Assembly (NCBI GenBank): GCA_017395245.1 | Contig: JAFPVR010000006.1 | Location: 1 to 42,532, forward strand | Origin: Bacteroidales bacterium | GTDB lineage: Bacteria; Bacteroidota; Bacteroidia; Bacteroidales; WCHB1-69 | Length of the DNA: 42,532 nt | Direction of reading: 5' to 3' | Shown here: one piece after another, positions 2-14,133 of the stretch | Numbering within the stretch: position 1 is the stretch's first letter | Layout: each line of letters opens with the position of its first letter | Position numbers and translations under genes: made by a program | The notes under the pieces: generated by a model | Told to the model about the DNA's origin: nothing | The model's database searches: none | What the model saw: the letters and a program-made list of their open reading frames with translations, nothing else

Positions 2-184
2 GATCCGAATAATATCCACTCCCAGCCGGCGAAGTGCCCCTACAACCCCTACATCTGCCTTTGGGAGGGACAGGAGGGCTACGTGCCCGTGGAGGGATGT
101 GGCACCTATTCACGCGAAACAGGGTTTGTGCCCGACAAGAAGAGGATTGCGGAGTTGAACAAACAGATTTGGGGAGAGGAGTGA
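2..184 (+). CDS. C-terminal end of an unrecognised protein (partial)
   Basis: An open frame enters from the left edge and ends at TGA 182-184, giving the last 60 residues of a protein whose start lies outside the window. The piece contains three cysteines, many aromatics and prolines, and a charged C-terminus ending in GEE. I do not recognise the family. It lies on the same strand as the peptide-export genes, only 23 bases before the ABC exporter start, so it may belong to the same transcription unit. That is a guess from position only. Confidence 0.5.
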   Translation, partial: DPNNIHSQPAKCPYNPYICLWEGQEGYVPVEGCGTYSRETGFVPDKKRIAELNKQIWGEE

Positions 185-207: not shown

Positions 208-2481
208 ATGAGTAGAAAGTTCCCATATTACCACCAGCTCGACGCCATGGATTGCGGCCCTACCTGCCTGCGGATGGTGGCCAAGCACTATGGCAAGCAC
301 TACTCGTTGGAGACGCTCCGGCAGAAGAGCTTCATCGGGCGGGAGGGGGTGAGCATGCTCGGCATCAGCACCGCTGCCGAAAGCATCGGCTTCCGTTCTA
401 TTGGCGTGCATATCTCTTTTCAACAGCTGGCCGAAGCACCCATGCCTTGCATCGTGCATTGGAAACAGAACCATTTCGTAGTGGTCTATAAAATCCAATG
501 TACAATGAACAATGAACAACGTACAAAGGGGGATATTCCAAAGGGAACCGTTTATGTGGCCGACCCCGCGCAAGGTCTCATCAAATTCACGGTGCAGGAG
601 TTCCTGTCAGGGTGGCTCAGCACCAAGACGGAAGGACAGGACGAGGGAGTGGCTCTGCTGTTGGAACCCACCCCGGATTTCTACAATGCGGAGGGCGAGA
701 AACAGGACAAGACCAAACTCAGCTTCGTGCTGCAGTACCTCAGGCCCTACAAGAAACTCATCGTGCAGCTCTTCCTTGGTATGTTACTCGGTACGTTGCT
801 CCAGCTCATCTTCCCGTTTCTAACCCAGACTATCGTCGATTACGGTATCGGCAACAACAACCTCAGTTTCGTGGTGGTCATCCTCATCGCCCAGCTCACC
901 CTCTACGTGGCACAGACGGCCGTGGAGTTCATCCGTTCGTGGATTCTGCTCCACATCAGCACCCGCATCAACATCTCCATTATCTCCGACTTCCTCATCA
1001 AGCTGATGAAGCTGCCCATCGGCTTCTTTGACACCAAGATGATCGGCGACATCATGCAGCGCATCGGCGACCACAGCCGCATCGAGGCCTTCCTCACCTC
1101 CTCCACGCTGAACACGCTGTTCTCTTTTGTCAACCTGATTGTCTTCAGCATCGTGCTGGCACTCTACAACCTCAAGCTCTTTATGGTGTTCCTCGTTGCC
1201 TCTATCTTGTACGTGCTTTGGATAACCATCTTCCTGAAAAAGCGCAAAGAATTGGACTACAAGCGTTTCGCACAGGCATCCGCCGAGCAGAGCAACCTCT
1301 ACCAGCTCATAACGGGAATGCAGGAGATCAAGCTCAACAATTGCGAGAAACAGAAGCGTTGGGAATGGGAGAACATACAGGCTAAACTCTTTCGCGTGAG
1401 CATCAAAGGTCTGGCACTCAGCCAGTATCAGCAGTCAGGGGCGTTTTTCATCAACGAGACCAAGAACATCCTTATCTCGTTTGTCTCCGCCGCCGCCGTC
1501 ATCAAAGGCGACATGACCTTGGGTATGATGACCGCCGTGCAGTACATCATCGGCCAGCTCAATGCGCCTATCAACCAGATGATCGGATTCATCCAGTCGG
1601 CGCAGGACGCGAAAATCAGCTTGGAACGTTTGGGCGAAATCCATAACCGCGAAGACGAAAACCAATTTGCAATGGGGAATGGGCAATGGGCAATGAATGG
1701 GGATATGTCGAATCCCGATGCCGTAGGGGTGCACCGCGTGCGTCCAATGGATTTACGGATGGAAAACGTCACGTTCCGTTACGAGGAATTGTCGGACAAC
1801 GTGTTGGAGGACGTTTCGTTGGCGATTCCGGCGGGCAAGGTGACGGCCATCGTGGGGATGAGCGGCAGCGGCAAGACCACGATAGTGAAGCTTTTGTTGG
1901 GGTTTTATCCGCCGAAAAAGGGGGAGATTCTTGCAGGAAGCACGAATTTGAAGAACATCCGTCCGTCGGACTGGCGGGCGCGCTGCGGGGCGGTGATGCA
2001 GGACGGCTTCATCTTCTCGGACACCATCGCCCGCAACATCGCCGTGGGAGAGGAACACATTGACGGCCAGCACCTGCTCAACGCCGTGCGGGTGGCCAAT
2101 ATCGAGGAAATGATAGATGGTTTGCCATTGGGCTTTAACACCAAGATTGGACAGGAGGGGAAAGGCATCAGCCAGGGGCAACGCCAGCGAATCCTCATCG
2201 CCCGCTCCGTCTATAAGAACCCCGACTTTCTGTTCTTTGACGAGGCAACCAACGCCTTGGACGCGAACAACGAGAAGGTGATTATGGAGAACCTCCAACA
2301 GTTCTTCAAGGGACGAACCGTGGTGGTGGTGGCGCACCGCCTGAGCACGGTGAGGAACGCCGACCAGATTGTGGTGCTCAACCACGGGCGTATCGTTGAG
2401 GTGGGTACGCACGAGCAGCTGACCGCCCTGCGTGGGGAGTACTTTGAATTGGTGAGGAATCAGTTGGAGATGGGGAGTTGA
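208..2481 (+). CDS. Peptidase-containing ABC exporter (C39 peptidase, membrane domain, ATPase) for a double-glycine peptide
   Basis: A 757-residue bacteriocin/RiPP exporter of the PCAT type, which cuts leader peptides after Gly-Gly and exports the core across the inner membrane. Residues 1-135 are a C39 cysteine peptidase with Gln10, catalytic Cys16 (QLDAMDCGPTC), His89 (KQNHFVVV) and Asp119 (VADP). Residues about 160-450 form the six-helix ABC membrane domain. The ATPase domain has Walker A GMSGSGKTT near 550, signature ISQGQRQR near 654, Walker B FLFFDEA near 675 and the switch His in VVVAHR near 710. Two low-complexity stretches interrupt it without breaking the frame: residues about 97-108, between the catalytic His and Asp, and about 487-500, in the linker before the ATPase. 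Their DNA resembles the genome's intergenic word repeats. The double-glycine precursor follows 400 bases downstream on the same strand, which fits the assignment. Family confident; substrate inferred. Confidence 0.95.
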   Translation: MSRKFPYYHQLDAMDCGPTCLRMVAKHYGKHYSLETLRQKSFIGREGVSMLGISTAAESIGFRSIGVHISFQQLAEAPMPCIVHWKQNHFVVVYKIQCTMNNEQRTKGDIPKGTVYVADPAQGLIKFTVQEFLSGWLSTKTEGQDEGVALLLEPTPDFYNAEGEKQDKTKLSFVLQYLRPYKKLIVQLFLGMLLGTLLQLIFPFLTQTIVDYGIGNNNLSFVVVILIAQLTLYVAQTAVEFIRSWILLHISTRINISIISDFLIKLMKLPIGFFDTKMIGDIMQRIGDHSRIEAFLTSSTLNTLFSFVNLIVFSIVLALYNLKLFMVFLVASILYVLWITIFLKKRKELDYKRFAQASAEQSNLYQLITGMQEIKLNNCEKQKRWEWENIQAKLFRVSIKGLALSQYQQSGAFFINETKNILISFVSAAAVIKGDMTLGMMTAVQYIIGQLNAPINQMIGFIQSAQDAKISLERLGEIHNREDENQFAMGNGQWAMNGDMSNPDAVGVHRVRPMDLRMENVTFRYEELSDNVLEDVSLAIPAGKVTAIVGMSGSGKTTIVKLLLGFYPPKKGEILAGSTNLKNIRPSDWRARCGAVMQDGFIFSDTIARNIAVGEEHIDGQHLLNAVRVANIEEMIDGLPLGFNTKIGQEGKGISQGQRQRILIARSVYKNPDFLFFDEATNALDANNEKVIMENLQQFFKGRTVVVVAHRLSTVRNADQIVVLNHGRIVEVGTHEQLTALRGEYFELVRNQLEMGS
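498..531 (+). repeat. In-frame word repeat inside the C39 peptidase domain
   Basis: The bases read as tandem variants of CAATGTACAATGAACAATGAAC-like words, resembling the simple repeats between genes here. They encode roughly QCTMNNEQRTKG, between the catalytic His and Asp of the peptidase. Homologues usually have a short loop here, so this looks like an insertion tolerated in a loop. Confidence 0.55.
1669..1706 (+). repeat. In-frame CAATGGG word repeat in the exporter linker
   Basis: Repeated GCAATGGGgAATGGGCAATGGG-type words encode a Met/Asn/Gly-rich stretch (AMGNGQWAMNG) in the linker between the membrane and ATPase domains. The words resemble the genome's intergenic simple repeats. Confidence 0.55.
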
Positions 2482-2525
2482 GAATTAGGAATTAGAAATT
2501 AGAAATGAAGAATTAAAAATGAAGA
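2482..2525. repeat. AT-rich word repeat after the exporter gene
   Basis: Tandem variants of GAATTAGAAATTAGAAATGAAGAATTA follow directly on the exporter stop codon. A related fragment (GACAATTAGGAATTTGTAATTAG) precedes the exporter start at 183-205. The function is unknown; similar words flank several other genes here. Confidence 0.6.
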
Positions 2526-2585
2526 ATAGTATGGAATACCAAAGTTTCGTGTTTCATAACGCTCGAATGATGGGGATTGTATAAA

Positions 2586-2752
2586 GTCCCCGCCAAGCGT
2601 GCGCCGGTGGCGGGGACGGGAGAAACGGTGCGGGAGCAGGGTTGCCAGGAACATGCGTAGCAACCAAGACTGGCAGACCCTGCAGGAAAGCACCGTAAGG
2701 TATCGGGCATTGTGGCCCGTTTGTGCGGATATGACTGCAACCGCATAGCACA
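2586..2752 (+). ncRNA. Candidate structured RNA or multi-hairpin repeat upstream of the precursor gene
   Basis: This 400-base gap (2482-2878) holds a dense run of GC-rich hairpins. First is a perfect 10-bp stem, GTCCCCGCCA 2586-2595 with 2608-2617. Second is a long composite stem: ACGGTGC 2625-2631 with 2690-2696, then GCAGGGT 2636-2642 with 2677-2683, then TGCCAG 2643-2648 with 2670-2675, with a purine-rich internal loop. Third is CGGGC 2704-2708 with 2715-2719. Fourth is TGCGG 2724-2728 with CCGCA 2741-2745. I recognise no Rfam family. It could be a structured RNA, a 5' regulatory region, or a dispersed multi-hairpin repeat. The minus-strand open frame across it looks fortuitous. The strand is given as that of the neighbouring genes and is not proven. 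Confidence 0.4.
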
Positions 2753-2784
2753 CTATTCGCCGACGGCAAAAATAATAAAATTGT

Positions 2785-2792
2785 CATATTTG
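2785..2792 (+). promoter_or_regulatory. Possible -7 promoter box for the precursor gene
   Basis: CATATTTG differs by one base from the Bacteroidota TAnnTTTG box. It lies about 87 bases before the precursor start, just after the hairpin cluster. No clear -33 TTTG was seen, so this is tentative. Confidence 0.3.
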
Positions 2793-2878
2793 CGAGCAGT
2801 CACGAAAGCGTTGTGCAAAATGTCTACGCGCCCTGCGGAAAAGAGGGGAAAATATCGTTTAATTTAAAAAAAATTAAC

Positions 2879-3073
2879 ATGAAAGAGATTTTTAAGAATA
2901 TGGGATTAAGTAAATCCGAAAGCGAATTAATTTCTGGCGGCTCAGATTGCTGGACGTGTAAAACAAAAGAATGCCAATTCAAATGCGTCTCTCAATGCAC
3001 ATTGATTAAAGATTGTGTAACAGGCTCATTGTGGGGCTCTTCTGTTATTTCTGACGGCAATAGTAATCAATAA
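2879..3073 (+). CDS. Double-glycine RiPP precursor peptide with six-cysteine core
   Basis: A 64-residue peptide. The start is the ATG at 2879, preceded by an AT-rich stretch; an in-frame ATG at 2813 would add 22 residues unlike any leader and is not preferred. Residues 1-21 (MKEIFKNMGLSKSESELISGG) match the leader pattern of Bacteroidales GG precursors: a short amphipathic helix, Leu/Ile-Ser, then Gly-Gly as the C39 cleavage site. The predicted core is 43 residues (Ser22-Gln64) with cysteines at 24, 27, 32, 36, 40 and 46. Cys32, 36 and 40 form a CxxxCxxxC run, recalling the 'CXXX repeat' targets of radical SAM maturases. The C-terminal 18 residues are Ser/Gly/Asn-rich without cysteine. The exporter lies upstream and the maturase downstream. 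The modification is inferred (thioether cross-links are plausible); disulfides only are possible. Confidence 0.85.
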   Translation: MKEIFKNMGLSKSESELISGGSDCWTCKTKECQFKCVSQCTLIKDCVTGSLWGSSVISDGNSNQ

Positions 3074-3081
3074 GTATTCCG

Positions 3082-3177
3082 AGGGCGCGTCAGAAGTCCC
3101 ATAAACGATACTTGATATTCATAACTATGTGACAAACAAGTAATAGTTTTTGATAGAATTGACTTTTGATGCGCCCT
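3082..3177 (+). promoter_or_regulatory. Long inverted repeat between precursor and maturase genes
   Basis: AGGGCGCGTCAGAAGTC (3082-3098) can pair over 17 positions with GACTTTTGATGCGCCCT (3161-3177); the two non-Watson-Crick pairs would be G-U in RNA. The 62-base loop contains a nested TACTTG/CAAGTA pair. The direct repeat TAAGTATT occurs just outside both arms (3071-3078, overlapping the precursor stop codon, and 3189-3196). It may be a processing or attenuation structure setting the precursor:enzyme ratio, or a small mobile inverted-repeat element with a target duplication. Confidence 0.6.
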
Positions 3178-3204
3178 ATTTAAAAAATTAAGTATTAAAA
3201 TATT

Positions 3205-4701
3205 ATGGATAAAAACAGTAAATATATCATCAATCCAGTTTATAAGTTTCGAAATGACATACATAGAGTCATCATAACAAATCAAAAAAACTACTTCTTG
3301 GAGGATTACGAGGAAGGTTCTTTTGCAGAAGGATTTTCAAGTATGATTCATCCTTACGTAGCTTTTATCTTTAGCTTTTTTGACGGCTCAAACACTGTGC
3401 TTGATGTATACAACAAACTTAAAGACTCGCTACTGATTCCTTCAGACGAATTTTGTGATACCATTTCAAATTTCATTGAAAACAAGGAGACGCAAGTCTT
3501 CAAAGCAGGAGATTCCACCAACAGTATCCCCCGAAATTTTCTTGTAGAATCAAGACCAAATGAGATACGAGATGATTTACGAATATCATTCGATATGGAC
3601 GAAATGTTACAGGGTTTAGACCTGCATACTATTAGAAATTATATTCCGAACGAAATGACGTTAATGTTAAACAATACGTGCTGTACAAATTGCATCTATT
3701 GTTATGCCGATAGGGAAACAAGACCGACAAAATTGATCCCTTTTAACAGACTTCGGGGAATTATTAGAGAAGCAGATGAATTGCATTTTCGAGATATAGG
3801 CATTGATGGAGGTGACTTTTTTATGTATCCTTATTGGTATGAACTACTATTAGAATTGAAAAAATATGAATATAGCCCTTTGGTATCAACAAAATATCCA
3901 ATAACCAAAGATATTGTCAGCAAGTTGTTGTCTGTAGGTATAAAAAAAATTCAATTATCACTAGATAGTGTAAGGAATCAAGAGATTCGACAAATCCTTA
4001 AAGTTAAAGATGATTACTTGCTCAAAGTTATTGATGGGGTCAAAATACTTGATGAAGCAGGGATAGAAATCATACTTAAGCCAGTAATTACAAACATCAA
4101 CGATTCCATCAATTCTATCGAGGAATTGGTGTCTTTCTCTGCTCAGTTTGATAATGTCAACGACATATACTTAACACCTGCCGATTATAGTCAATTTAAG
4201 ACGTTTGACTATCATTCAAGTAGAAATAGACTCAAATTAATTGAGGAGCACGTTCCTTTTCTTAAAGAGAAATATCAAAAAAACATTGTTATGCTTGGAT
4301 ACGGTACAGATGATTCCATCGAGAAAAAAATGAGAATGTTCGGAAATCGCTCCACTTGTTCGGGCAATGTCAGCTCCTTCTTCGTCCTTCCTGATGGGAA
4401 AGTGACTTTGTGCGAACAATTATATTGGCATCCGTTTTTTATCATTGGAGATTTAAATCAACAATCAATCATGGAAATGTGGAATTCAGAAAAAGCCCTG
4501 TCTTTATGGAATTTTTCTCAAGAAGAAGTTCAGGAGTCGAGTCCTTGCAAAAGTTGTAATATGTTTGCAGAGTGTCGCCGAGGACAGGGTAATTGTTGGA
4601 GAATGGCTGTTGCAACGTACGGCCCCGATTGCTATGATTATCCGTCGCCAAATTGCCCACGAGCACCGAAAATAACAAAGAGCATGTTTATCCCTGAATA
4701 G
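3205..4701 (+). CDS. Radical SAM/SPASM peptide maturase
   Basis: A 498-residue radical SAM enzyme expected to modify the cysteine-rich precursor. Residues about 15-100 look like a PqqD-like recognition region, with the IHPYVAFIFSFFDG segment followed by a helical stretch. The SAM-cluster motif CxxxCxxC is Cys159-Cys163-Cys166 (CCTNCIYC). Later DGGDFF and LSLDS fit strands of the partial TIM barrel. The C-terminal SPASM region starts near CSGNVSSFF, continues with DGKVTLCEQLYW, and ends in CKSC, CRRGQGNCW and further cysteines before CPRAP, enough for two auxiliary 4Fe-4S clusters. Length and architecture match the GG/CXXX-type peptide maturases of Bacteroidales. The gene is AT-rich compared with the exporter, and the RDD gene follows after six bases. 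The class is confident; the bond formed is unknown. Confidence 0.93.
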   Translation: MDKNSKYIINPVYKFRNDIHRVIITNQKNYFLEDYEEGSFAEGFSSMIHPYVAFIFSFFDGSNTVLDVYNKLKDSLLIPSDEFCDTISNFIENKETQVFKAGDSTNSIPRNFLVESRPNEIRDDLRISFDMDEMLQGLDLHTIRNYIPNEMTLMLNNTCCTNCIYCYADRETRPTKLIPFNRLRGIIREADELHFRDIGIDGGDFFMYPYWYELLLELKKYEYSPLVSTKYPITKDIVSKLLSVGIKKIQLSLDSVRNQEIRQILKVKDDYLLKVIDGVKILDEAGIEIILKPVITNINDSINSIEELVSFSAQFDNVNDIYLTPADYSQFKTFDYHSSRNRLKLIEEHVPFLKEKYQKNIVMLGYGTDDSIEKKMRMFGNRSTCSGNVSSFFVLPDGKVTLCEQLYWHPFFIIGDLNQQSIMEMWNSEKALSLWNFSQEEVQESSPCKSCNMFAECRRGQGNCWRMAVATYGPDCYDYPSPNCPRAPKITKSMFIPE

Positions 4702-4707
4702 AAAATA

Positions 4708-6549
4708 ATGAAAGCACATTTACTTCAAAAACTATTATATCCGATAATAGATTTTGTCTTTATCGGTACGGGAGTAGCATTGGCTTCCCGTCTATTGTCC
4801 TTTGCGTTTCCACCCATAAGATGGGTCTATCTCCTTGCTATAACTTACCTGTATTACACAACATTCTATCTTTTAAGAAAGCAGACTATTGGACAACAGG
4901 CATTAGGGGTCAAGATACGACACGTCAATGGAAATGAGGCGACCACCAGACAAATATTACGTAGGGAAGCCCTTAAAATCCTCTTGGTCATCGCCATTCC
5001 ACGCCTAATTTTGGAATTAGGATTCAGACAAATTGTTTTCCGGAGTTTTTTGGCCATCGTTATTACGGCAGTCTATGTCTTCATTGTCCTCTTGGTGGGC
5101 TGTGTTTCGGGGAGGAACTTATGGGAATTTTGCTCGAAGACTACAAAAGTTAGACATGAACGTTCCTTCAAATCAGCTGTTTCGACATTCGTGACCATTT
5201 GTTTATTTGGCGTGGGCACTTTCTTCATTTTGATGTTGCACAACAACATCGGTAATGATGCCCCTAACTCAATCTGTGGCTTCAAGGTGCCCTTTAAGTT
5301 ACTGCAACATCCAATAAACAAGTCTGTGGCGCCTTACCAGATATGCATGAAGGAAAATGGAGTGCCTGCAAAAGACTATGTCCTCTCGCTGTTTGAAAAC
5401 TACGACATCGTTGTACTGGAAGAGTCTGTCCATGACGAGTGCCATCCGTGGGACTTAATCTATGACATTGTGTCGGACGATTACTTCGTGAACAATGTGG
5501 GAACCATTTTCACAGAATACGGTGAAGCAAGAGATCAGGCGGACATTGACAGCATGCTCCGCACACGGTATGCAGATGACGAATCGCGTTCAAAAGCAGC
5601 GGCAGCGGCAACGCACATCCGTTCGGGCGGTTATTGTTTCCACAAGTTTCTCAAAAAGATAAACATACTGAATGAGAATCTTCCAGATTCCCTAAAGATA
5701 AGCGTGCGTCCCGAAGAGATTGGCTATGGAAAATACTTTTCCATTATGGATTTTTCTACGGACAGCTTATATCAGCAATTTCTGAAATTAGACAGTTTGC
5801 GAGCACAGGTCACCATAGACTGGTATCGCAAAACAGGGAAAAAGTGCCTCGTTGTGACAAACACAAGACACGCGTATATTTGCACATCGGAGGCACAAAA
5901 AAGGTCTCCCCGCATGTTCAAGAAGGCTTTCGAAGGAAATCAGATGCAATATGTTTATGACAGTCTTCCGGGGAAAGTAGCGAATGTTCATTATTTTGAC
6001 AATTTGGATATCGCATGCCCGAATGTTATGGGCGGGAAATGGGAAGCCGCATTCCGAAGTCTGCAATATCAGCCCGTAGGCTTCGACCTTGAAGGAACAG
6101 TATTCGGTGATGATTATTTCGACTTATACAATTATTGGTGTTACCACGCATTTCGATACCAGGATATTTTTACGGGAATCGTATTTTACACCCCCGCTGG
6201 AGAAGCTTTTTATCGCTATCCAGCCCCATATCTGCGATATGCGGCAAAAAAAGAATATGAAACACGTCTCAGAAATGGTGAAATCACAAAGGACCAACTG
6301 TTAAACGATCAAATATCCCCATTAGGTGGAAAATATGCATGCACCCTCACGCCCGAGCAACTATTCGATTTATATGAAGATCACCCAGAATCTTACACTT
6401 ATGAGCGGACGATGCTATTCTTAAGAGGCAACTATTGGCATTATCTTGACATTTTTATTACCTTATTGCTGTATTTTTTCGGTTTATTTGTGGCTTTTTT
6501 GTCAATATTTAGAATAAAGGTATATAACGAAAAGTTGACCGACAATTAG
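4708..6549 (+). CDS. RDD-type membrane protein with a C-terminal erythromycin-esterase/ChaN-like domain
   Basis: 613 residues. The N-terminal 190 residues form an RDD-like membrane domain: helices around 10-32, 40-55, 90-107, 112-135 and 160-180, and the typical TIGQQALGVKIRHVNGNEATTRQILRRE signature between helices (quoted from residues about 60 to 90). The soluble part then carries NYDIVVLEESVHDECHPW and later GTIFTEYG, resembling the ESxH and following Glu strand of erythromycin-esterase/ChaN-like proteins of Bacteroidota, plus a histidine in NTRHAY. A final hydrophobic helix lies near 590-608. The hydrolase-like domain therefore sits between membrane anchors, probably in the periplasm. 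Its place between maturase and HlyD points to a role in processing, resistance or immunity for the peptide. That role is inference, and the distant domain call is moderate. Confidence 0.7.
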   Translation: MKAHLLQKLLYPIIDFVFIGTGVALASRLLSFAFPPIRWVYLLAITYLYYTTFYLLRKQTIGQQALGVKIRHVNGNEATTRQILRREALKILLVIAIPRLILELGFRQIVFRSFLAIVITAVYVFIVLLVGCVSGRNLWEFCSKTTKVRHERSFKSAVSTFVTICLFGVGTFFILMLHNNIGNDAPNSICGFKVPFKLLQHPINKSVAPYQICMKENGVPAKDYVLSLFENYDIVVLEESVHDECHPWDLIYDIVSDDYFVNNVGTIFTEYGEARDQADIDSMLRTRYADDESRSKAAAAATHIRSGGYCFHKFLKKINILNENLPDSLKISVRPEEIGYGKYFSIMDFSTDSLYQQFLKLDSLRAQVTIDWYRKTGKKCLVVTNTRHAYICTSEAQKRSPRMFKKAFEGNQMQYVYDSLPGKVANVHYFDNLDIACPNVMGGKWEAAFRSLQYQPVGFDLEGTVFGDDYFDLYNYWCYHAFRYQDIFTGIVFYTPAGEAFYRYPAPYLRYAAKKEYETRLRNGEITKDQLLNDQISPLGGKYACTLTPEQLFDLYEDHPESYTYERTMLFLRGNYWHYLDIFITLLLYFFGLFVAFLSIFRIKVYNEKLTDN

Positions 6550-6555
6550 TGCAAA

Positions 6556-7896
6556 ATGGGAGAAAACGATACCATAATCTTTCAGAACAATAATATTCCT
6601 GACGATCTCAATCTTCGCAGCGAGGAAGTCCAGGAAATCCTCGGACGTCCGCCAAAATGGATCGTGCGGGTGGGTATCAGCATCATCTTTGTCGTGGTGG
6701 CGGGACTTTTCGTGGGCAGCTATTTCCTGAAATACCCGGACATCCTGCCCGCCACGATTACCGTCACCACCGAAAACCTGCCCGCCGGTGTGATGGCCAT
6801 GACCACGGGCAAGATTGACACCATAGCCGTTGCGGAGAAACAGACGGTTAAAGAGGGCGAACTGCTGGCTGTCATTCGCAATCCCGCTAAATTGGAGGAT
6901 GTGATGGTGGTGAAACGAATGTTGGAAGAATCGAACACGCTGGTTGTAGAGACGCAAAATTTTGCGTCTCTACAGAATGGCACGTTTCTACAGTTGGGCG
7001 ACCTCCAATCGGCATACACCGCCTTCGACAATGCCCTGACCGATTACCGCCATTTTGTTGAAACGGATTACCATAACCGTAAAATTGCGGTCATTCGGAA
7101 GCAGATTGCTGCCCAGAAGAACCTGCTACAAAAAACCGTCAACCAGCTGAACATCAGCAGAAAACAATTGGCCACGGCACAAAAGCTGTTCGAAATTGAT
7201 TCGATGCTATACAGCAATGCGGCACTTTCCTTGGTGGATTACCAGTCGGCAAGAAACAGTCTGCTGCAACAACTGTCGTCCCTTGAATCGTCCAAGATGA
7301 GCGTTGACAACCAGCGGATGAGCATTTTGCAATCCGAACAGAGCATCTTTGATCTGGAGCAGCAGCGCATTGACGAAGAACAGCAGCTGACATCAGCCCT
7401 GACCAGTGCCAAGGAGCAACTTGCCGCCCAAATACGGCAATGGGAACAGACCTACCTGTTAGTTGCCCCATGCGATGGAAAAGTCACGTTCACCAAGTAC
7501 TGGCAGAAAAACCAGAATGTGAATGCGGGTGAGGTGTTGGTGACCGTAGTTCCCGACGGTGACACGCAGGTGGTAGGGAAGATCTTGCTTCCGCAGCAGG
7601 GCGCGGGCAAGGTCAAGGTCGGGCAGACCGTCAACGTCAAATTGGACAACTTCCCGTATCTGGAATACGGAATGGTCAAGGTATGCATACGGAACATCTC
7701 GATGGTCCCCGTGCAGGTGGATGAAAACACCAAAGCCTATATGCTTGAGGTGGAGTTTCCGGAGAATCTGGTTACAACATACGGTAAGCTGTTGACTTTC
7801 AGCCAGGAAATGACTGGTACGGCGGAAATCATCACCGAAGACTTGAGGCTGTTGGACAAGTTCATCAATCCGATTAGGGCGGTGATAAAGAAGTGA
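6556..7896 (+). CDS. HlyD-family membrane fusion protein (periplasmic adaptor)
   Basis: A 446-residue adaptor expected to join the C39 ABC exporter to an outer-membrane channel. One membrane helix at about residues 36-58 follows a cytoplasmic N-terminus (LRSEEVQEILGRPPKWIVR) typical of Bacteroidota homologues. A biotinyl-lipoyl half motif is seen at AMTTGKIDTIAV...VKEGELLAVI and the returning half at APCDGKVTFTKYW...VNAGEVLVTV. Between them lies a long coiled-coil hairpin, roughly residues 145-300. The 28-bp palindrome at 6946-6973 is inserted in frame and encodes VETQNFASLQ (residues 131-140), near the start of the coiled coil. GC content returns to that of the exporter. The gene starts six bases after the RDD gene. 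No TolC-like gene is in view. Confidence 0.92.
   Translation: MGENDTIIFQNNNIPDDLNLRSEEVQEILGRPPKWIVRVGISIIFVVVAGLFVGSYFLKYPDILPATITVTTENLPAGVMAMTTGKIDTIAVAEKQTVKEGELLAVIRNPAKLEDVMVVKRMLEESNTLVVETQNFASLQNGTFLQLGDLQSAYTAFDNALTDYRHFVETDYHNRKIAVIRKQIAAQKNLLQKTVNQLNISRKQLATAQKLFEIDSMLYSNAALSLVDYQSARNSLLQQLSSLESSKMSVDNQRMSILQSEQSIFDLEQQRIDEEQQLTSALTSAKEQLAAQIRQWEQTYLLVAPCDGKVTFTKYWQKNQNVNAGEVLVTVVPDGDTQVVGKILLPQQGAGKVKVGQTVNVKLDNFPYLEYGMVKVCIRNISMVPVQVDENTKAYMLEVEFPENLVTTYGKLLTFSQEMTGTAEIITEDLRLLDKFINPIRAVIKK
6946..6973. repeat. 28-bp perfect palindrome, copy 1, in frame within the HlyD gene
   Basis: Half-site GTAGAGACGCAAAA is followed directly by its exact reverse complement. It begins on a codon boundary of the HlyD gene and encodes VETQNFASLQ. 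Other copies lie at 18718, 27276 and 40571. Confidence 0.95.
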
Positions 7897-7955: not shown

Positions 7956-9614
7956 ATGCAGTACGAGTACGACCGTTTGAGAAAGTTTGTTGCAACAGCC
8001 GCCATCGCGCTGCTGTTCACAACGTTGCTGGTCTCTTGCAAGACGAAGTTCGACCATCCCGACAAGCAGATTTTCCACTATAACGAATCGTCGGGCATCC
8101 TGAGCCTCGATCCCGCGTTCGCTTCCGGACAGGCGACGATCTGGCCCTGCAACCAGCTCTACAACGGTTTGGTGGATATGGACGACCAGTTGCGGGTGGT
8201 GCCGGCCATCGCCAAAAGCTGGACTATCTCTGAAGATGGCAAAACTTACACGTTCATTCTCCGCAACGACGTGCAGTTCCACAATACGGACTTCTTCCCG
8301 TTCGCGAAACCGCGCTATGTCACGGCGGAAGATTTTGTCTATAGCCTGGGCCGCATCCTCAGTCCCGATGTGGCCTCGCCAGGCGCATGGATTTTCCAGA
8401 AGGTGAAGCGCGACAAAAATGGCAAACCTGCCTTCAAAGCGCTGAACGACACGGTTTTCCAAATCGAACTGACAGAGCCCTTCCCACCGTTCCTCGGCAT
8501 CCTGACGATGAAATACTGCTCGGTGGTGCCGCATGAGGTCGTGGAACGTTACGGCAAGGACTTCCGGAAATATCCGGTGGGCACCGGCCCATTCCAGATG
8601 CAGCTTTGGGAAGAGGGCGTAAAACTTGTGATGCGCAAGAACCCCCACTATTTCGAGACGGATTCGGCGGGCAAGCAACTGCCCTACATCGACGCGGTGG
8701 CAGTTTCCTTCATCGTTGACAAACAGTCTGTGTTCATGGAGTTTATGAAAGGCTCGCTCGATTTTATGTCGGGGGTGGACCCGAGCTACAAGGACGCGCT
8801 GCTCACCAAAGACGGGCGGCTCAATCCCGAGTATGCCGACAAAATCAAGCTCATCACCGGGCCGTATCTCAACACCGAGTATTTGGGCTTCAACCTGAAA
8901 CCTACGGATAAAAACAACCCGCTGAAGGACAAGCGGATACGGCAGGCCATCAACTACGGTTTCGATAGGGAGAAGATGATGAAGTACCTGCGCAACAATA
9001 TGGGTTATGCCGGGGACGGCGGTTTCGTGCCGCGCGGGATGCCGTCCTATAACCCTGAACGCACCGGCGGATATAGCTATAACCCGCAGAAGGCCTTGCA
9101 GTTATTGGCGGAAGCGGGCTATCCAAACGGGAAAGGGCTACCGGCCATCACGCTGACAGTCTCGGCACAGTATGCGGACCTCTGCCAATACATCCAGCAC
9201 GAGTTGGAGCAAATCGGCATCACGCTAAAGCTGGATATCGCGCAACCGGCACAACAACGGGAAATGATGCGCAGTTACCAGCTGCCCTTCTTCCGTGGCT
9301 CCTGGATTTGCGACTACCCTGACGCAGAGAACCAGATGTCGCTCTTCTACTCCAAAAACATCCTGCCGACGGGTTCCAACTACACCCACTACGTAAACCC
9401 GAAATTCGACCAACTGTACGAAAAATCGCAGCGTTGCACCGATGATTCAGCCCGCACCGAATACTATATCCAGATGGACTCGTTGTTGGTGGCCGACGCG
9501 CCCTTCGTCGTCCTGTACTACGACAAAGTGGCTCGTTTCGTGCAGAAAAACGTGGAAGGTATGGGCGTAAACCCCGTGAATATGCTCGACTTGCGGCGGG
9601 TCAAATTACGTTAA
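7956..9614 (+). CDS. OppA-like ABC transporter substrate-binding lipoprotein (family 5)
   Basis: 552 residues. It starts with a lipoprotein signal peptide ending in the lipobox LLVSC (Cys24 or so), so the mature protein is membrane-anchored. The body follows the family 5 solute-binding pattern: LSLDPAFASGQATIWPCNQLYNGLV, AIAKSWTISEDGKTYTFILRNDVQFHN, TAEDFVYSLGRILSP, YPVGTGPFQMQLW and the DKRIRQAINYGFDREKM segment (stretches from residues about 48 to 340). Such proteins bind oligopeptides or similar ligands for import. No permease or ATPase gene adjoins it, as is common for Bacteroidota. It could bind peptides, including the neighbouring locus's product, but nothing in the sequence shows that. 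Its stop overlaps the 3' end of the convergent GalM-fusion gene by 14 bases. Confidence 0.88.
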   Translation: MQYEYDRLRKFVATAAIALLFTTLLVSCKTKFDHPDKQIFHYNESSGILSLDPAFASGQATIWPCNQLYNGLVDMDDQLRVVPAIAKSWTISEDGKTYTFILRNDVQFHNTDFFPFAKPRYVTAEDFVYSLGRILSPDVASPGAWIFQKVKRDKNGKPAFKALNDTVFQIELTEPFPPFLGILTMKYCSVVPHEVVERYGKDFRKYPVGTGPFQMQLWEEGVKLVMRKNPHYFETDSAGKQLPYIDAVAVSFIVDKQSVFMEFMKGSLDFMSGVDPSYKDALLTKDGRLNPEYADKIKLITGPYLNTEYLGFNLKPTDKNNPLKDKRIRQAINYGFDREKMMKYLRNNMGYAGDGGFVPRGMPSYNPERTGGYSYNPQKALQLLAEAGYPNGKGLPAITLTVSAQYADLCQYIQHELEQIGITLKLDIAQPAQQREMMRSYQLPFFRGSWICDYPDAENQMSLFYSKNILPTGSNYTHYVNPKFDQLYEKSQRCTDDSARTEYYIQMDSLLVADAPFVVLYYDKVARFVQKNVEGMGVNPVNMLDLRRVKLR

Positions 9615-11199
9615 CCGTTCCGAACTTGAACTTCGTCCGGCTGTGATAAACCTCGCCCGGACGTAGGAAAGCATTCGATTCCGGCCAGTTTTGGTTCGGT
9701 GAATCGGGAAATTTTTGCGTTTCTAAACAGACAGCAGCGCGTTGCTGATAGACCACCCCACCCTTTCCGACAAATGTTCCGTCGAGGAAGTTGCCGGTAT
9801 AGACCTGCATCCCCGGTTCAGTGGTGTAAACCTCTAACGCAATGCCCGTTACGGGACTCTCCAAGCGGGCGCACAGACGAGTGTCGTCGCCCTTCGTGTT
9901 CAGCACCCAGTTGTGGTCATATCCGCGCCCGATGCGCAGCTGTTCGAAGTCGGTGGCGATGTCGCGGCCAATCGGCTTGGGCTGCCGGAAGTCCATCGGC
10001 GTGCCCTCCACGGAAGCCAACTCGCCCGTGGGGATGAAGGTTTCGCCAATCGGGGTGTAGCGGTCGGCGTCGATGGTCAGCAGGTGGTTGAGGATGTCGG
10101 TGGAGGCATCGCCGTTGAGGTTGAAGTAGCTGTGGTTGGTCATGTTGATGACCGTTGGCTCGTCCGTAACCGCCTCATACTGAATATCCAGCGCATTGTC
10201 GTCTGTCAGCATGTAGGTGACGCGGGCACACACATTGCCCGGGAACCCGCTGTCGCCGTCCTCGCTGACCAAGCTCAGCACCAGCCGGTTGTCGCCCACT
10301 TCTTCAACGTTAAAGATGCGGTACTGCCAGCCGTCCGGACCGCCGTGCAGACAGTTCTTGCCATCGTTTTGCGGCAGCTGGTACGTTTTCCCGTCGATGG
10401 TTATCTGCCCGTTATTCAGTCGGTTGGCGTACCTTCCAATCGCCGCCCCGAAGTCAGAGCGGTGGTTTTCGGGAAGGTAGTCTTCCACGTTTTCGAACCC
10501 GAGCACGACATCGCGCAAAATGCCGTTTCTGTCGGGCACGAACAATGAAACGACGCGCCCGCCGAGGTTAGTGATGGTCGCACGGAGGCCGCGGGCGTTT
10601 TTCAGCGTGAAAAGGGTGATGGCACTATCGTTATAATCCATTTTTGTTGAAAATTTATCTCGAAGCTCGTAAATTCTGTCCATTATAATGTCTTGCTGTT
10701 TTTCGTTGAGCTGCAACCCGAATCTAACCGTATTCGGATTCCCATTTTCCGACGTGTAATGTATTCGAAGCGAGGCATTATACAAGTACGACCTCCTGAA
10801 AAAAGTCCACCAAGGTGACTCATATTTTTCAATTTCTACAATACAGTTCCACGGGATAGTTGTTTCCCTATCAATGAGTTTTTTAAGATGGATTACGATA
10901 CCGTTTTCATCATACGACACGGTTTCGGCACCCTTAACCTGCCAAACAAGCATATCCAAAGCATATAAAGTATAAGCGACAGGTAACATCAGTAGCAATA
11001 TAAAAAACAATATGCCAAATATATCGGGCCACTCGTCTATTATCCACCAGATAAGGGAAATCAAGCCGATAATACAGAATGCAGAACCGATGAGTGTACA
11101 CAGACCGAAAAAGAGTATGAGATCCGGCTCCGGGCGACTGCGCAGCAGTTTGGTGCGGCCGTTGAGATCGTTTTTGTCAGATTCGGGGTTTGTTGGCAT
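9601..11199 (-). CDS. galM: Fusion: small membrane/PH-like protein joined to aldose 1-epimerase
   Basis: 532 residues made of two complete proteins. Residues 1-186 match the separate gene at 13549-14133: the same opening (MPTNPxSDxN-L-GRTKLLRSRPEPD), two membrane helices, a DMLxWQxKG segment, and a C-terminal domain ending NExQQxIxxxRIxEL. Residue 187 is a methionine that starts a full-length aldose 1-epimerase (mutarotase, 346 residues) with FGAAIGRYANRL, a catalytic-type His in NMTNHSYFNLNG, GYDHNW, and the catalytic-Glu region AAVCLETQKFPDSPNQ. Mutarotase interconverts alpha and beta anomers of galactose or glucose. The join is exactly end-to-start, as if a small deletion removed a stop codon and intergenic DNA. 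Whether the epimerase is also translated from its own ATG (plus-strand position 10641) is open. Confidence 0.9.
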   Translation of the reverse strand: MPTNPESDKNDLNGRTKLLRSRPEPDLILFFGLCTLIGSAFCIIGLISLIWWIIDEWPDIFGILFFILLLMLPVAYTLYALDMLVWQVKGAETVSYDENGIVIHLKKLIDRETTIPWNCIVEIEKYESPWWTFFRRSYLYNASLRIHYTSENGNPNTVRFGLQLNEKQQDIIMDRIYELRDKFSTKMDYNDSAITLFTLKNARGLRATITNLGGRVVSLFVPDRNGILRDVVLGFENVEDYLPENHRSDFGAAIGRYANRLNNGQITIDGKTYQLPQNDGKNCLHGGPDGWQYRIFNVEEVGDNRLVLSLVSEDGDSGFPGNVCARVTYMLTDDNALDIQYEAVTDEPTVINMTNHSYFNLNGDASTDILNHLLTIDADRYTPIGETFIPTGELASVEGTPMDFRQPKPIGRDIATDFEQLRIGRGYDHNWVLNTKGDDTRLCARLESPVTGIALEVYTTEPGMQVYTGNFLDGTFVGKGGVVYQQRAAVCLETQKFPDSPNQNWPESNAFLRPGEVYHSRTKFKFGTVNVI

Positions 11200-13123: not shown

Positions 13124-13552
13124 ATGGAACTCCCGGGAAGCCTCTTGGGGGCAGTAGTCGGAGAAGGTGAAAAGTACTTCTTCACGGTGGACTGTCCGAT
13201 AGGTGTCCAAGAGCATATTCATATTTGTATCAAGCGCCACAACAAGATATTGCTGTTCTCTACCTGTTCCTCCCAAACCGATACGGCATTTCGGTTGGCA
13301 AAACTGAGAGGACTTGACTTGAACACATTCCCAGTATTCACCCGCAACGAAGTGAACAAGTTCCAACGTGACATGACCTACGTCAACTGCAATAATGTGA
13401 TTGAGGTGAGTGAGGCTGAATTTGGTCAACTTATTAAAGACGGCAAGGTACATCGACTGGATGGTAAACTTGACGAACTCAGTATGGCTCTTATAGCCAA
13501 CGGCGTGAAGTTGAGCCCTGATGTCGAACGTAGAATCAAGGATTTGTTTTAG
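13124..13552 (+). CDS. Putative toxin partner of the Panacea antitoxin
   Basis: 142 residues, four bases after the antitoxin gene. The first 100 residues are strand-rich (GAVVGEGEKYFFTVDCP, EHIHICIKRHNKILLFSTC, FPVFTRNEVNKFQRDMTYVNCNNVIEV), recalling PemK/MazF-like small barrels in which a first strand, a solvent-exposed Ser/Thr/Cys strand and a YV.C..V strand alternate. The last 40 residues are helical. I cannot match it to a named toxin family. Candidate functional residues are His67/68-type histidines in the HIHICIKRHNK strand and the conserved-looking TYVNCNN. The toxin role rests on operon context. It overlaps the stop of the convergent gene by four bases. Confidence 0.6.
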   Translation: MELPGSLLGAVVGEGEKYFFTVDCPIGVQEHIHICIKRHNKILLFSTCSSQTDTAFRLAKLRGLDLNTFPVFTRNEVNKFQRDMTYVNCNNVIEVSEAEFGQLIKDGKVHRLDGKLDELSMALIANGVKLSPDVERRIKDLF

Positions 13553-14133
13553 TTTTTATTTTTAAAACTCTCCACCAGCAACTCATTAATGCGCTCTACA
13601 ACAATCTCCTGTTGGTCTTCGTTGAGCAACAGTCCGAACCGCACCTTTTTGGTCTTGCCTTTCGCGTTTTTGTAAGTCAGACAAAGTGTTTCGTCCCCAT
13701 CTCTCCCTTTAAATTTGTACCACGGATAAGAATAGGGTTCCACGTTCAGGATACAATCCCATGGAATCCGCCACTCCCCGCTGAACAAACTCTTATGCTG
13801 GATGAGCAAGTCCTTTTCCGAATAGGTGACAAGCTCCTCGCCTTTTATCTGCCAAATCAGCATATCCAAAACCATTAGCGTGTAAGCGATGGGAACACCG
13901 CAGATGATGAACGCCTGGAAAAAACCGTTCATAAACGGCCAAAATCCGTCCAAGCCTCGCCAACCGATTTCAATCATCTCAGAAATCACAAAATAAAACG
14001 CCATAAAGCTGAAAAACAACCCGATCAGCGTTGCTATCCCGAACACCAAAATGTTATCCGGCTCCGGGCGGCTGCGCAGTAGTTTGGTGCGGCCGTCAAG
14101 CTCGTTCGGGTCTGATTTGGGGTTCGTTGGCAT
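13549..14133 (-). CDS. Small membrane protein with PH-like C-terminal domain, paralogue of the GalM fusion N-terminus
   Basis: 194 residues: a polar N-terminus (MPTNPKSDPNELDGRTKLLRSRPEPD), two hydrophobic segments at about 28-50 and 68-92, then a soluble strand-rich domain (KGEELVTYSEKDLLIQHKSLF, RIPWDCILNVEPY, KKVRFGLLLNEDQQEIVVERINELL). This layout resembles membrane-anchored bacterial PH-like proteins, but the family is not certain. Almost the same protein forms residues 1-186 of the fusion gene 2.3 kb away on the same strand, so the two arose by duplication. It has its own TATTTTTG box 20 bases upstream. Function unknown. Confidence 0.75.
   Translation of the reverse strand: MPTNPKSDPNELDGRTKLLRSRPEPDNILVFGIATLIGLFFSFMAFYFVISEMIEIGWRGLDGFWPFMNGFFQAFIICGVPIAYTLMVLDMLIWQIKGEELVTYSEKDLLIQHKSLFSGEWRIPWDCILNVEPYSYPWYKFKGRDGDETLCLTYKNAKGKTKKVRFGLLLNEDQQEIVVERINELLVESFKNKN

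Follow-up and report, generated by a model that had tools for sequence, protein, structure and literature searches.

The closest described relatives of the locus analysed here are SCIFF, SkfA-SkfB and subtilosin AlbA, in which a cysteine-rich precursor peptide is served by a SPASM radical S-adenosylmethionine (SAM) maturase, together with the Cxxx-repeat and double-glycine (GG) Bacteroidales systems (TIGR04117-04119, TIGR04150), the grasp-with-spasm graspetides (TIGR04192/TIGR04193) and the Bacteroidales radical SAM/C39 clusters mined with BAGEL4. The locus lies in positions 1 to 42,532 of contig JAFPVR010000006.1 (GCA_017395245.1) of a Bacteroidales bacterium (GTDB WCHB1-69), hereafter the window, and consists of a GG precursor, a radical SAM/SPASM maturase and an RDD membrane protein placed between a C39 exporter and a HlyD adaptor. 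It is likely to be a cassette for a ribosomally synthesised and post-translationally modified peptide (RiPP) seated in a shared export hub, with precursor expression controlled by a structured leader.

Compared with the first group, to which SkfB, the top PDB sequence hit for the maturase family profile (E 2e-15, PqqE next), belongs, the window differs in its cysteine kernel and leader peptide, has an additional RDD/EreA-like partner, and its maturase falls far under the cut-offs of the named equivalogs, none of which was passed among the best 25 of 48 NCBIfam families (best 51 bits against a cut-off of 231); only TIGR04085, the general SPASM domain model, was passed among these 25 (32.8 against 27). 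Cx3C spacing and a GG leader are shared with the Cxxx-repeat and GG-Bacteroidales systems, although the maturase matches TIGR04150 (E 8e-7) and TIGR04119 (E 1e-4) weakly and under cut-off, and neither the precursor nor its close relatives match any such profile; at the distant loci L038 and L039 there are Cxxx-like precursors with weak, sub-cut-off profile matches. With the grasp-with-spasm graspetides (branch 5 of PMC8939145) the window shares the C39-HlyD hub, whereas an ATP-grasp ligase is absent from the cassette itself. The clusters of PMC10352776 likewise combine a GG precursor with a radical SAM enzyme and a C39 exporter and come from the same bacterial order, and the main text of that paper mentions neither grasp, RDD nor erythromycin. 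Unlike the erythromycin esterase/ChaN-like fold as described, the window domain is fused to an RDD membrane domain within a RiPP operon.

An earlier note on this DNA had proposed a RiPP system of six-cysteine GG peptide, radical SAM maturase, C39 exporter and HlyD adaptor, and its gene coordinates all hold. Peptidase_C39 (E 3e-31), ABC_membrane and ABC_tran domains occur in the single protein encoded at 208..2481, as in a peptidase-containing ATP-binding cassette (ABC) transporter; Radical_SAM (E 5e-14) and SPASM (E 3e-11) identify the maturase and HlyD_3 (E 1e-13) the adaptor. The note left a fifth gene between 208 and 7896 unnamed and overlooked the RDD/esterase-like partner that it encodes; nor did it notice the grasp-with-spasm surroundings, the placement of the cassette inside a C39-HlyD operon or the presence of a structured leader. 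The precursor is as described, 64 residues with GG at 20-21 and cysteines at 24, 27, 32, 36, 40 and 46, so that a short leader-bearing peptide lies beside a tailoring enzyme as in RiPP loci generally. It is alone among 139 ATG open reading frames (ORFs) of 40-130 residues in the window in carrying a GG leader followed by at least six cysteines, a combination found in 17 of 1767 ORFs from fetched loci above 8 kb, most of them picked for such systems. The same gene set had been suggested as something to seek elsewhere, and homologous GG precursors do lie upstream of homologous maturases at L025, L026, L033 and L035; the gene set and these pairs support a RiPP well, with the product class still presumptive.

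The five close precursors (those of the window, L025, L026, L033 and L035) have the leader consensus M-x-[LM]-S-K-x-x-S-[EK]-x-I-x-G-G. Their cysteine gaps are 2,4,3,3,5 in the window, 4,3,3,2,3,2,3,3 in L025, 4,3,3,2,3,3,4 in L026, 4,3,4,2,2,6 in L033 and 4,3,4,2,3,2,2 in L035, from which a shared kernel, C-x4-C-x3-C-x3/4-C, is evident; in the window this is C27-x4-C32-x3-C36-x3-C40, with C24 and C46 outside it. The note could not match the spacing to a described family and suggested a profile search, in which none of ten precursors (the window's and nine others) reaches a peptide-family cut-off in NCBIfam release 20. The spacing is not unique, since the kernel recurs in four relatives. More distant GG/Cys peptides occur near maturases at L040, L041, L043 and L068, and all nine peptides compared have at least one Cx3C. 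When the window precursor was searched with phmmer against these nine (a tiny database which includes itself), matches were found to L035 (E 2e-8), L026 (3e-5), L025 (4e-5), L040 (0.006) and L033 (0.008), and those to L043, L041 and L068 were not significant.

The product of window positions 2-181 is 93% identical to the C-terminal 60 residues of L046:5871-7001, a TIGR04193 protein (E 4e-97). TIGR04193 is above cut-off in hubs L046, L047 and L049, and TIGR04192 in L046 and L049 (211 against 230 bits in L047). In L046 and L047 the C39 gene overlaps the HlyD gene, and in L045 the two are directly adjacent; homology of the window to the L046/L047 junctions stops at 2506 and restarts at 6607 (2490 and 6601 for L045). 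The adaptor is 94-96% identical in G026, G016, G036, G031 and G002 and 81% in G004, and is thus present in 7 of 40 genus genomes including the window's own. At L025 a related maturase cassette precedes C39, and a second cassette (L025:7045-10512) lies between C39 and HlyD, comprising a 10-Cys GG peptide, a DUF4932 protein with a zinc-peptidase-like HEACH motif, and a CefB-like maturase nearest to TIGR04463 and CefB, below cut-off, whose open frame continues into the HlyD region. Between window and L025 the exporters are 91% and the adaptors 97% identical, compared with 48% for the maturases and 35% for the RDD proteins, which implies that the cassettes evolved separately from the hub. In its original form the hub was probably an operon of grasp-with-spasm type whose C39 and HlyD genes stood side by side, with cassettes being inserted and exchanged there; no description of a radical SAM cassette inserted into such a hub was found in a literature search that took in few subscription journals.

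The partner protein between maturase and adaptor passes the Pfam RDD cut-off (25.0 bits against 24.1), and fold comparison matches its C-terminal domain to the erythromycin esterase/ChaN-like fold at ~12% identity. E239, H242, E270 and H388 are invariant in nine rows and may correspond to the catalytic Glu/His residues of Ere. From fold and context the domain is probably periplasm-facing and would act on the exported product, either in a last maturation step or in self-protection. That the protein is instead an immunity or resistance factor outside maturation has nearly an even chance: esterase-fold relatives inactivate macrolides, and the protein is also found in three places (L185-L187) apart from any maturase. 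For an erythromycin-esterase homologue at a graspetide locus, PMC8939145 considers either modification or resistance as a possible role. The position of the gene argues for maturation, as gaps of 6 bp separate it from both maturase and HlyD in the window, and it adjoins the maturase in 12 of the 33 maturase places counted over the relatives, order and class searches, even at the exporter-free loci L027 and L035. Shorter relatives of the EreA/ChaN-like domain that have no RDD part occur at L189, L190, L191, L192, L195 and L196, several with apparent export signals.

In leader-peptide attenuators a short ORF ends at a hairpin ahead of the regulated gene. Such an arrangement, shared with structured 5' leaders, is found behind the exporter in the window, where a short ORF with its stop abutting hairpin P1 is followed by P2 and, after ~180 nt, by the precursor start codon; unlike known examples, the targets are GG peptides and lipoproteins, and no Rfam 15 family covers the element in the window, L076, L079 or L132. 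The region ahead of the precursor resembles those ahead of very different GG peptides, and a DNA profile match extends to the start codon, the runner-up in the window being at E 0.0065. RNAalifold on a MAFFT alignment of 16 sequences including the window (A5, which excludes L083, L084, L086 and L091) gave the two hairpins, with double changes in 9 of 30 pairs; the 20 such cells compare with 4.5 in shuffles and were reached by none of 500, slid controls being much lower, and one of five measures, further pair types, was reached by 30 of 500 shuffles. The covariance model R1 matches at 48 places, spread over 26 of 197 relatives and confined to the window's family (genera g1, g4, g9, g11, g17), and under stricter filters none in other families of the order (~93 of the sample, G104-G196). 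Across these 48 matches (A7, of which two rows are halves of one copy, and from which L153-L155 were left out as near-identical) double changes occur in 23 of 30 pairs, in 148 cells against 33.4 (0 of 500 shuffles), with 76 G-U cells among 1378. A conserved GGCAAAGATAC-like stretch, 158-192 nt past the R1 match start, resembles the -7 promoter box of Bacteroidales when the other strand is read, in 26 of 29 inspected leader copies.

The genes behind the leader may form a regulon for exported products. Of the 44 copies that are followed by 250 nt or more, 20 precede a GG-leader gene, 15 a lipoprotein gene and 9 neither, with start codons 85-200 nt past the match, compared with 50 GG and 78 lipoprotein genes at 3000 random places in the same loci. 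These counts were corrected by hand from 21, 14 and 10 of 45 given by the script (L125 is a lipoprotein, two L126 rows are one copy split by ~50 nt), and a further three rows run too close to the edge of a contig. Copies from beyond the genus set give, after correction, 7 GG, 14 lipoprotein and 7 without either (n=28). Under a wider GG-target rule 24 of 48 copies qualify, compared with 175 of 4000 random places, after hand correction from 23 (G039:C40 and G075:C3 removed; G019, G036:C112:7147 and the borderline G072, with SG, added). The GG targets span grasp-with-spasm hubs (L049, L047), CefB-like cassettes (L046, L025) and the window type (window, L025). At L124 (G075:C11) six leader copies lie within ~14.5 kb; lipoprotein genes (MKKIIYLALIAV..GCEKE type) follow three of them and a GG peptide follows one.

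A stop codon starts at one fixed position, -2 relative to the match, in 34 of the 48 copies, and in 30 (31 before the spurious G100:C86:26361 was removed by hand) the frame has a GKN-type end, for example LGKNNFIE, with no ATG in the inspected sequence of two of the 30. The Gly, Lys, Asn and Phe codons vary synonymously, which argues that the short ORF is translated, and that of the window, MEYQSFVFHNARMMGIV, resembles its counterpart in G055, MEYRSFVNHNIRKMGIV. A ribosome at its end would hold P1 open, which, to judge from this anatomy, could couple precursor expression to translation.

The leader also marks a seam. Window 2401-2703, the end of C39 and the leader, is 78% identical to L025 6595-6882, and similarity fades just past P2, beyond which precursors, maturases and cassettes differ. 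G055 (L129) belongs to a different genus; there a leader of this type lies between a C39 gene with 91% identity and a GG peptide of a third sort, with no HlyD found in the 13 kb of that locus. In G094 (L131) a leader again follows C39 (82% identical), at a contig end. Exporter and leader are therefore constant and the downstream content variable. It is possible, at somewhat less than even chances, that the leader is a regulatory RNA of a new class, made up of the short ORF (frequently with an LGKNNF[IL]x end), P1 and P2, which controls an exported-product regulon of lipoproteins and GG peptides of several RiPP classes in one Bacteroidales family and sits where precursor-maturase cassettes are exchanged behind a fixed C39 exporter. 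The persistence of the element after C39 in the window, L025 and G055 while the precursors differ, and the loss of similarity past P2, would also suit an element acting as DNA, either a hairpin that serves as promoter or operator or a site for cassette exchange by homologous recombination; this is unlikely, as covariation including G-U cells, the fixed strand, the narrow start-codon distance and the abutting short ORF fit RNA better, although it may be both.

The leader as regulatory RNA should be considered with some caution. It tracks hub and regulon and not the maturase, its DNA profile finding no match at the precursor loci L026, L033, L035, L040 and L068; 9 of 44 copies have no recognised target; the window short ORF has no common LGKNNF-type end; some copies are near-identical (G014, G097, G009, G006); and A7, being fitted to R1, has counts that lean towards structure. 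If the regulatory reading is true, swaps at the leader seam would change the product while regulation and export persist. The leader signature locates peptide genes of unrelated classes without peptide similarity, and rumen-type Bacteroidales may diversify secreted peptides with a fixed exporter, exchangeable cassettes and a shared leader.

In the maturase, C159/C163/C166 (CX3CX2C) and seven C-terminal cysteines are invariant across 16 rows, as in SPASM maturases. The family is found in 19 of 197 relatives at E 1e-40 and, by profile at E 1e-70, in 12 of 393 genomes at the level of the order and 3 of 395 at that of the class (own genome included throughout); one of the 33 places, in G047, is a gene fragment, and its 2.8 kb contain no precursor or partner. 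The enzyme would bind the precursor through its leader peptide and, as in established families, cross-link the core cysteines, most likely as thioethers around the kernel, after which the C39 domain would cleave after GG21 and export the core with HlyD as periplasmic adaptor. Another modification, such as a carbon-carbon link or epimerisation, with the cysteines forming disulfides after export, is a rather improbable alternative. SPASM enzyme reactions do vary widely, SkfB and PqqE among the PDB matches are of differing chemistries, and the core has aromatic residues (W25, F34, W52), with a Trp two residues ahead of the kernel in L033 and L035 too; yet the kernel is the feature common to the close precursors, the aromatic positions being more variable. 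The locus offers a maturase-precursor pair whose cysteine kernel can be tested, together with a putative membrane hydrolase as partner.

Several points speak against a RiPP cassette built in this way. Precursor likeness is weak beyond leader and kernel, C39 and HlyD are separated by a 118-residue ORF in hub L049, the structure model of the RDD protein is of moderate quality (mean pLDDT, the predicted local distance difference test, 66.8), and 21 of 33 maturase places have no visible RDD partner. Absence of the precursor from otherwise conserved loci had been named as evidence against the system, and in seven same-genus genomes (L028-L032, L034, L036, own genome included) a maturase with no in-frame stop stands beside a putative pnp gene, with no GG/Cys precursor found nearby. 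Exporter and partner are missing there too, and we therefore read these as decayed orphans rather than conserved loci. The own genome's copy (G000:C64, L032:5864-7357) is 45% identical and alone near pnp; at the pnp site of G039 (L026) the precursor is retained and the RDD gene cut; in the tree, the window maturase branches outside L025 and the chromosomal maturases. That the window cassette is itself a decaying, non-functional relic, as the seven precursor-less maturases might suggest, is very improbable given its intact genes, cluster cysteines, tight spacing and conserved leader.

Table 1. Features of the locus, in window coordinates.
Feature	Position	Strand	Basis
Tail of grasp-with-spasm SPASM maturase, C-terminal, at contig edge	2..184	+	93% identity over 60 residues to L046:5871-7001 C-terminus
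C39 peptidase-containing ABC exporter	208..2481	+	Pfam; 91-94% identity to hub exporters in L025, L046, L047
Cassette splitting the C39-HlyD pair, approximate breakpoints	2507..6606	+	Break in homology to contiguous junctions
Upstream short ORF MEYQSFVFHNARMMGIV	2531..2584	+	Ends at first hairpin
Structured leader element	2584..2699	+	Covariance model R1, 83.6 bits; window row itself in model
Hairpin P1 (GTCCCCGCCA / TGGCGGGGAC)	2586..2617	+	
Hairpin P2 (CGGTGC..GCAGGGTTGCCAG / CTGGCAGACCCTGC..GCACCG)	2626..2695	+	
Upstream element by DNA profile	2604..2885	+	14 genus copies, window excluded; nhmmer E 3.2e-16
Precursor peptide, 64 aa, GG leader 1-21, six-Cys core	2879..3073	+	
Radical SAM/SPASM maturase, 498 aa	3205..4701	+	Pfam; invariant cluster cysteines
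RDD membrane protein with EreA/ChaN-like domain (~residues 205-500)	4708..6549	+	Pfam RDD; model and fold matches
HlyD-type periplasmic adaptor	6556..7896	+	Pfam; close homologues in genus

Elsewhere in the window, two minus-strand ORFs, 9601-11199 and 13549-14133, open with a very similar MPTNP.SD.N.L.GRTKLLRSRPEPD stretch; the longer runs on into an apparent aldose epimerase and may be a gene fusion.

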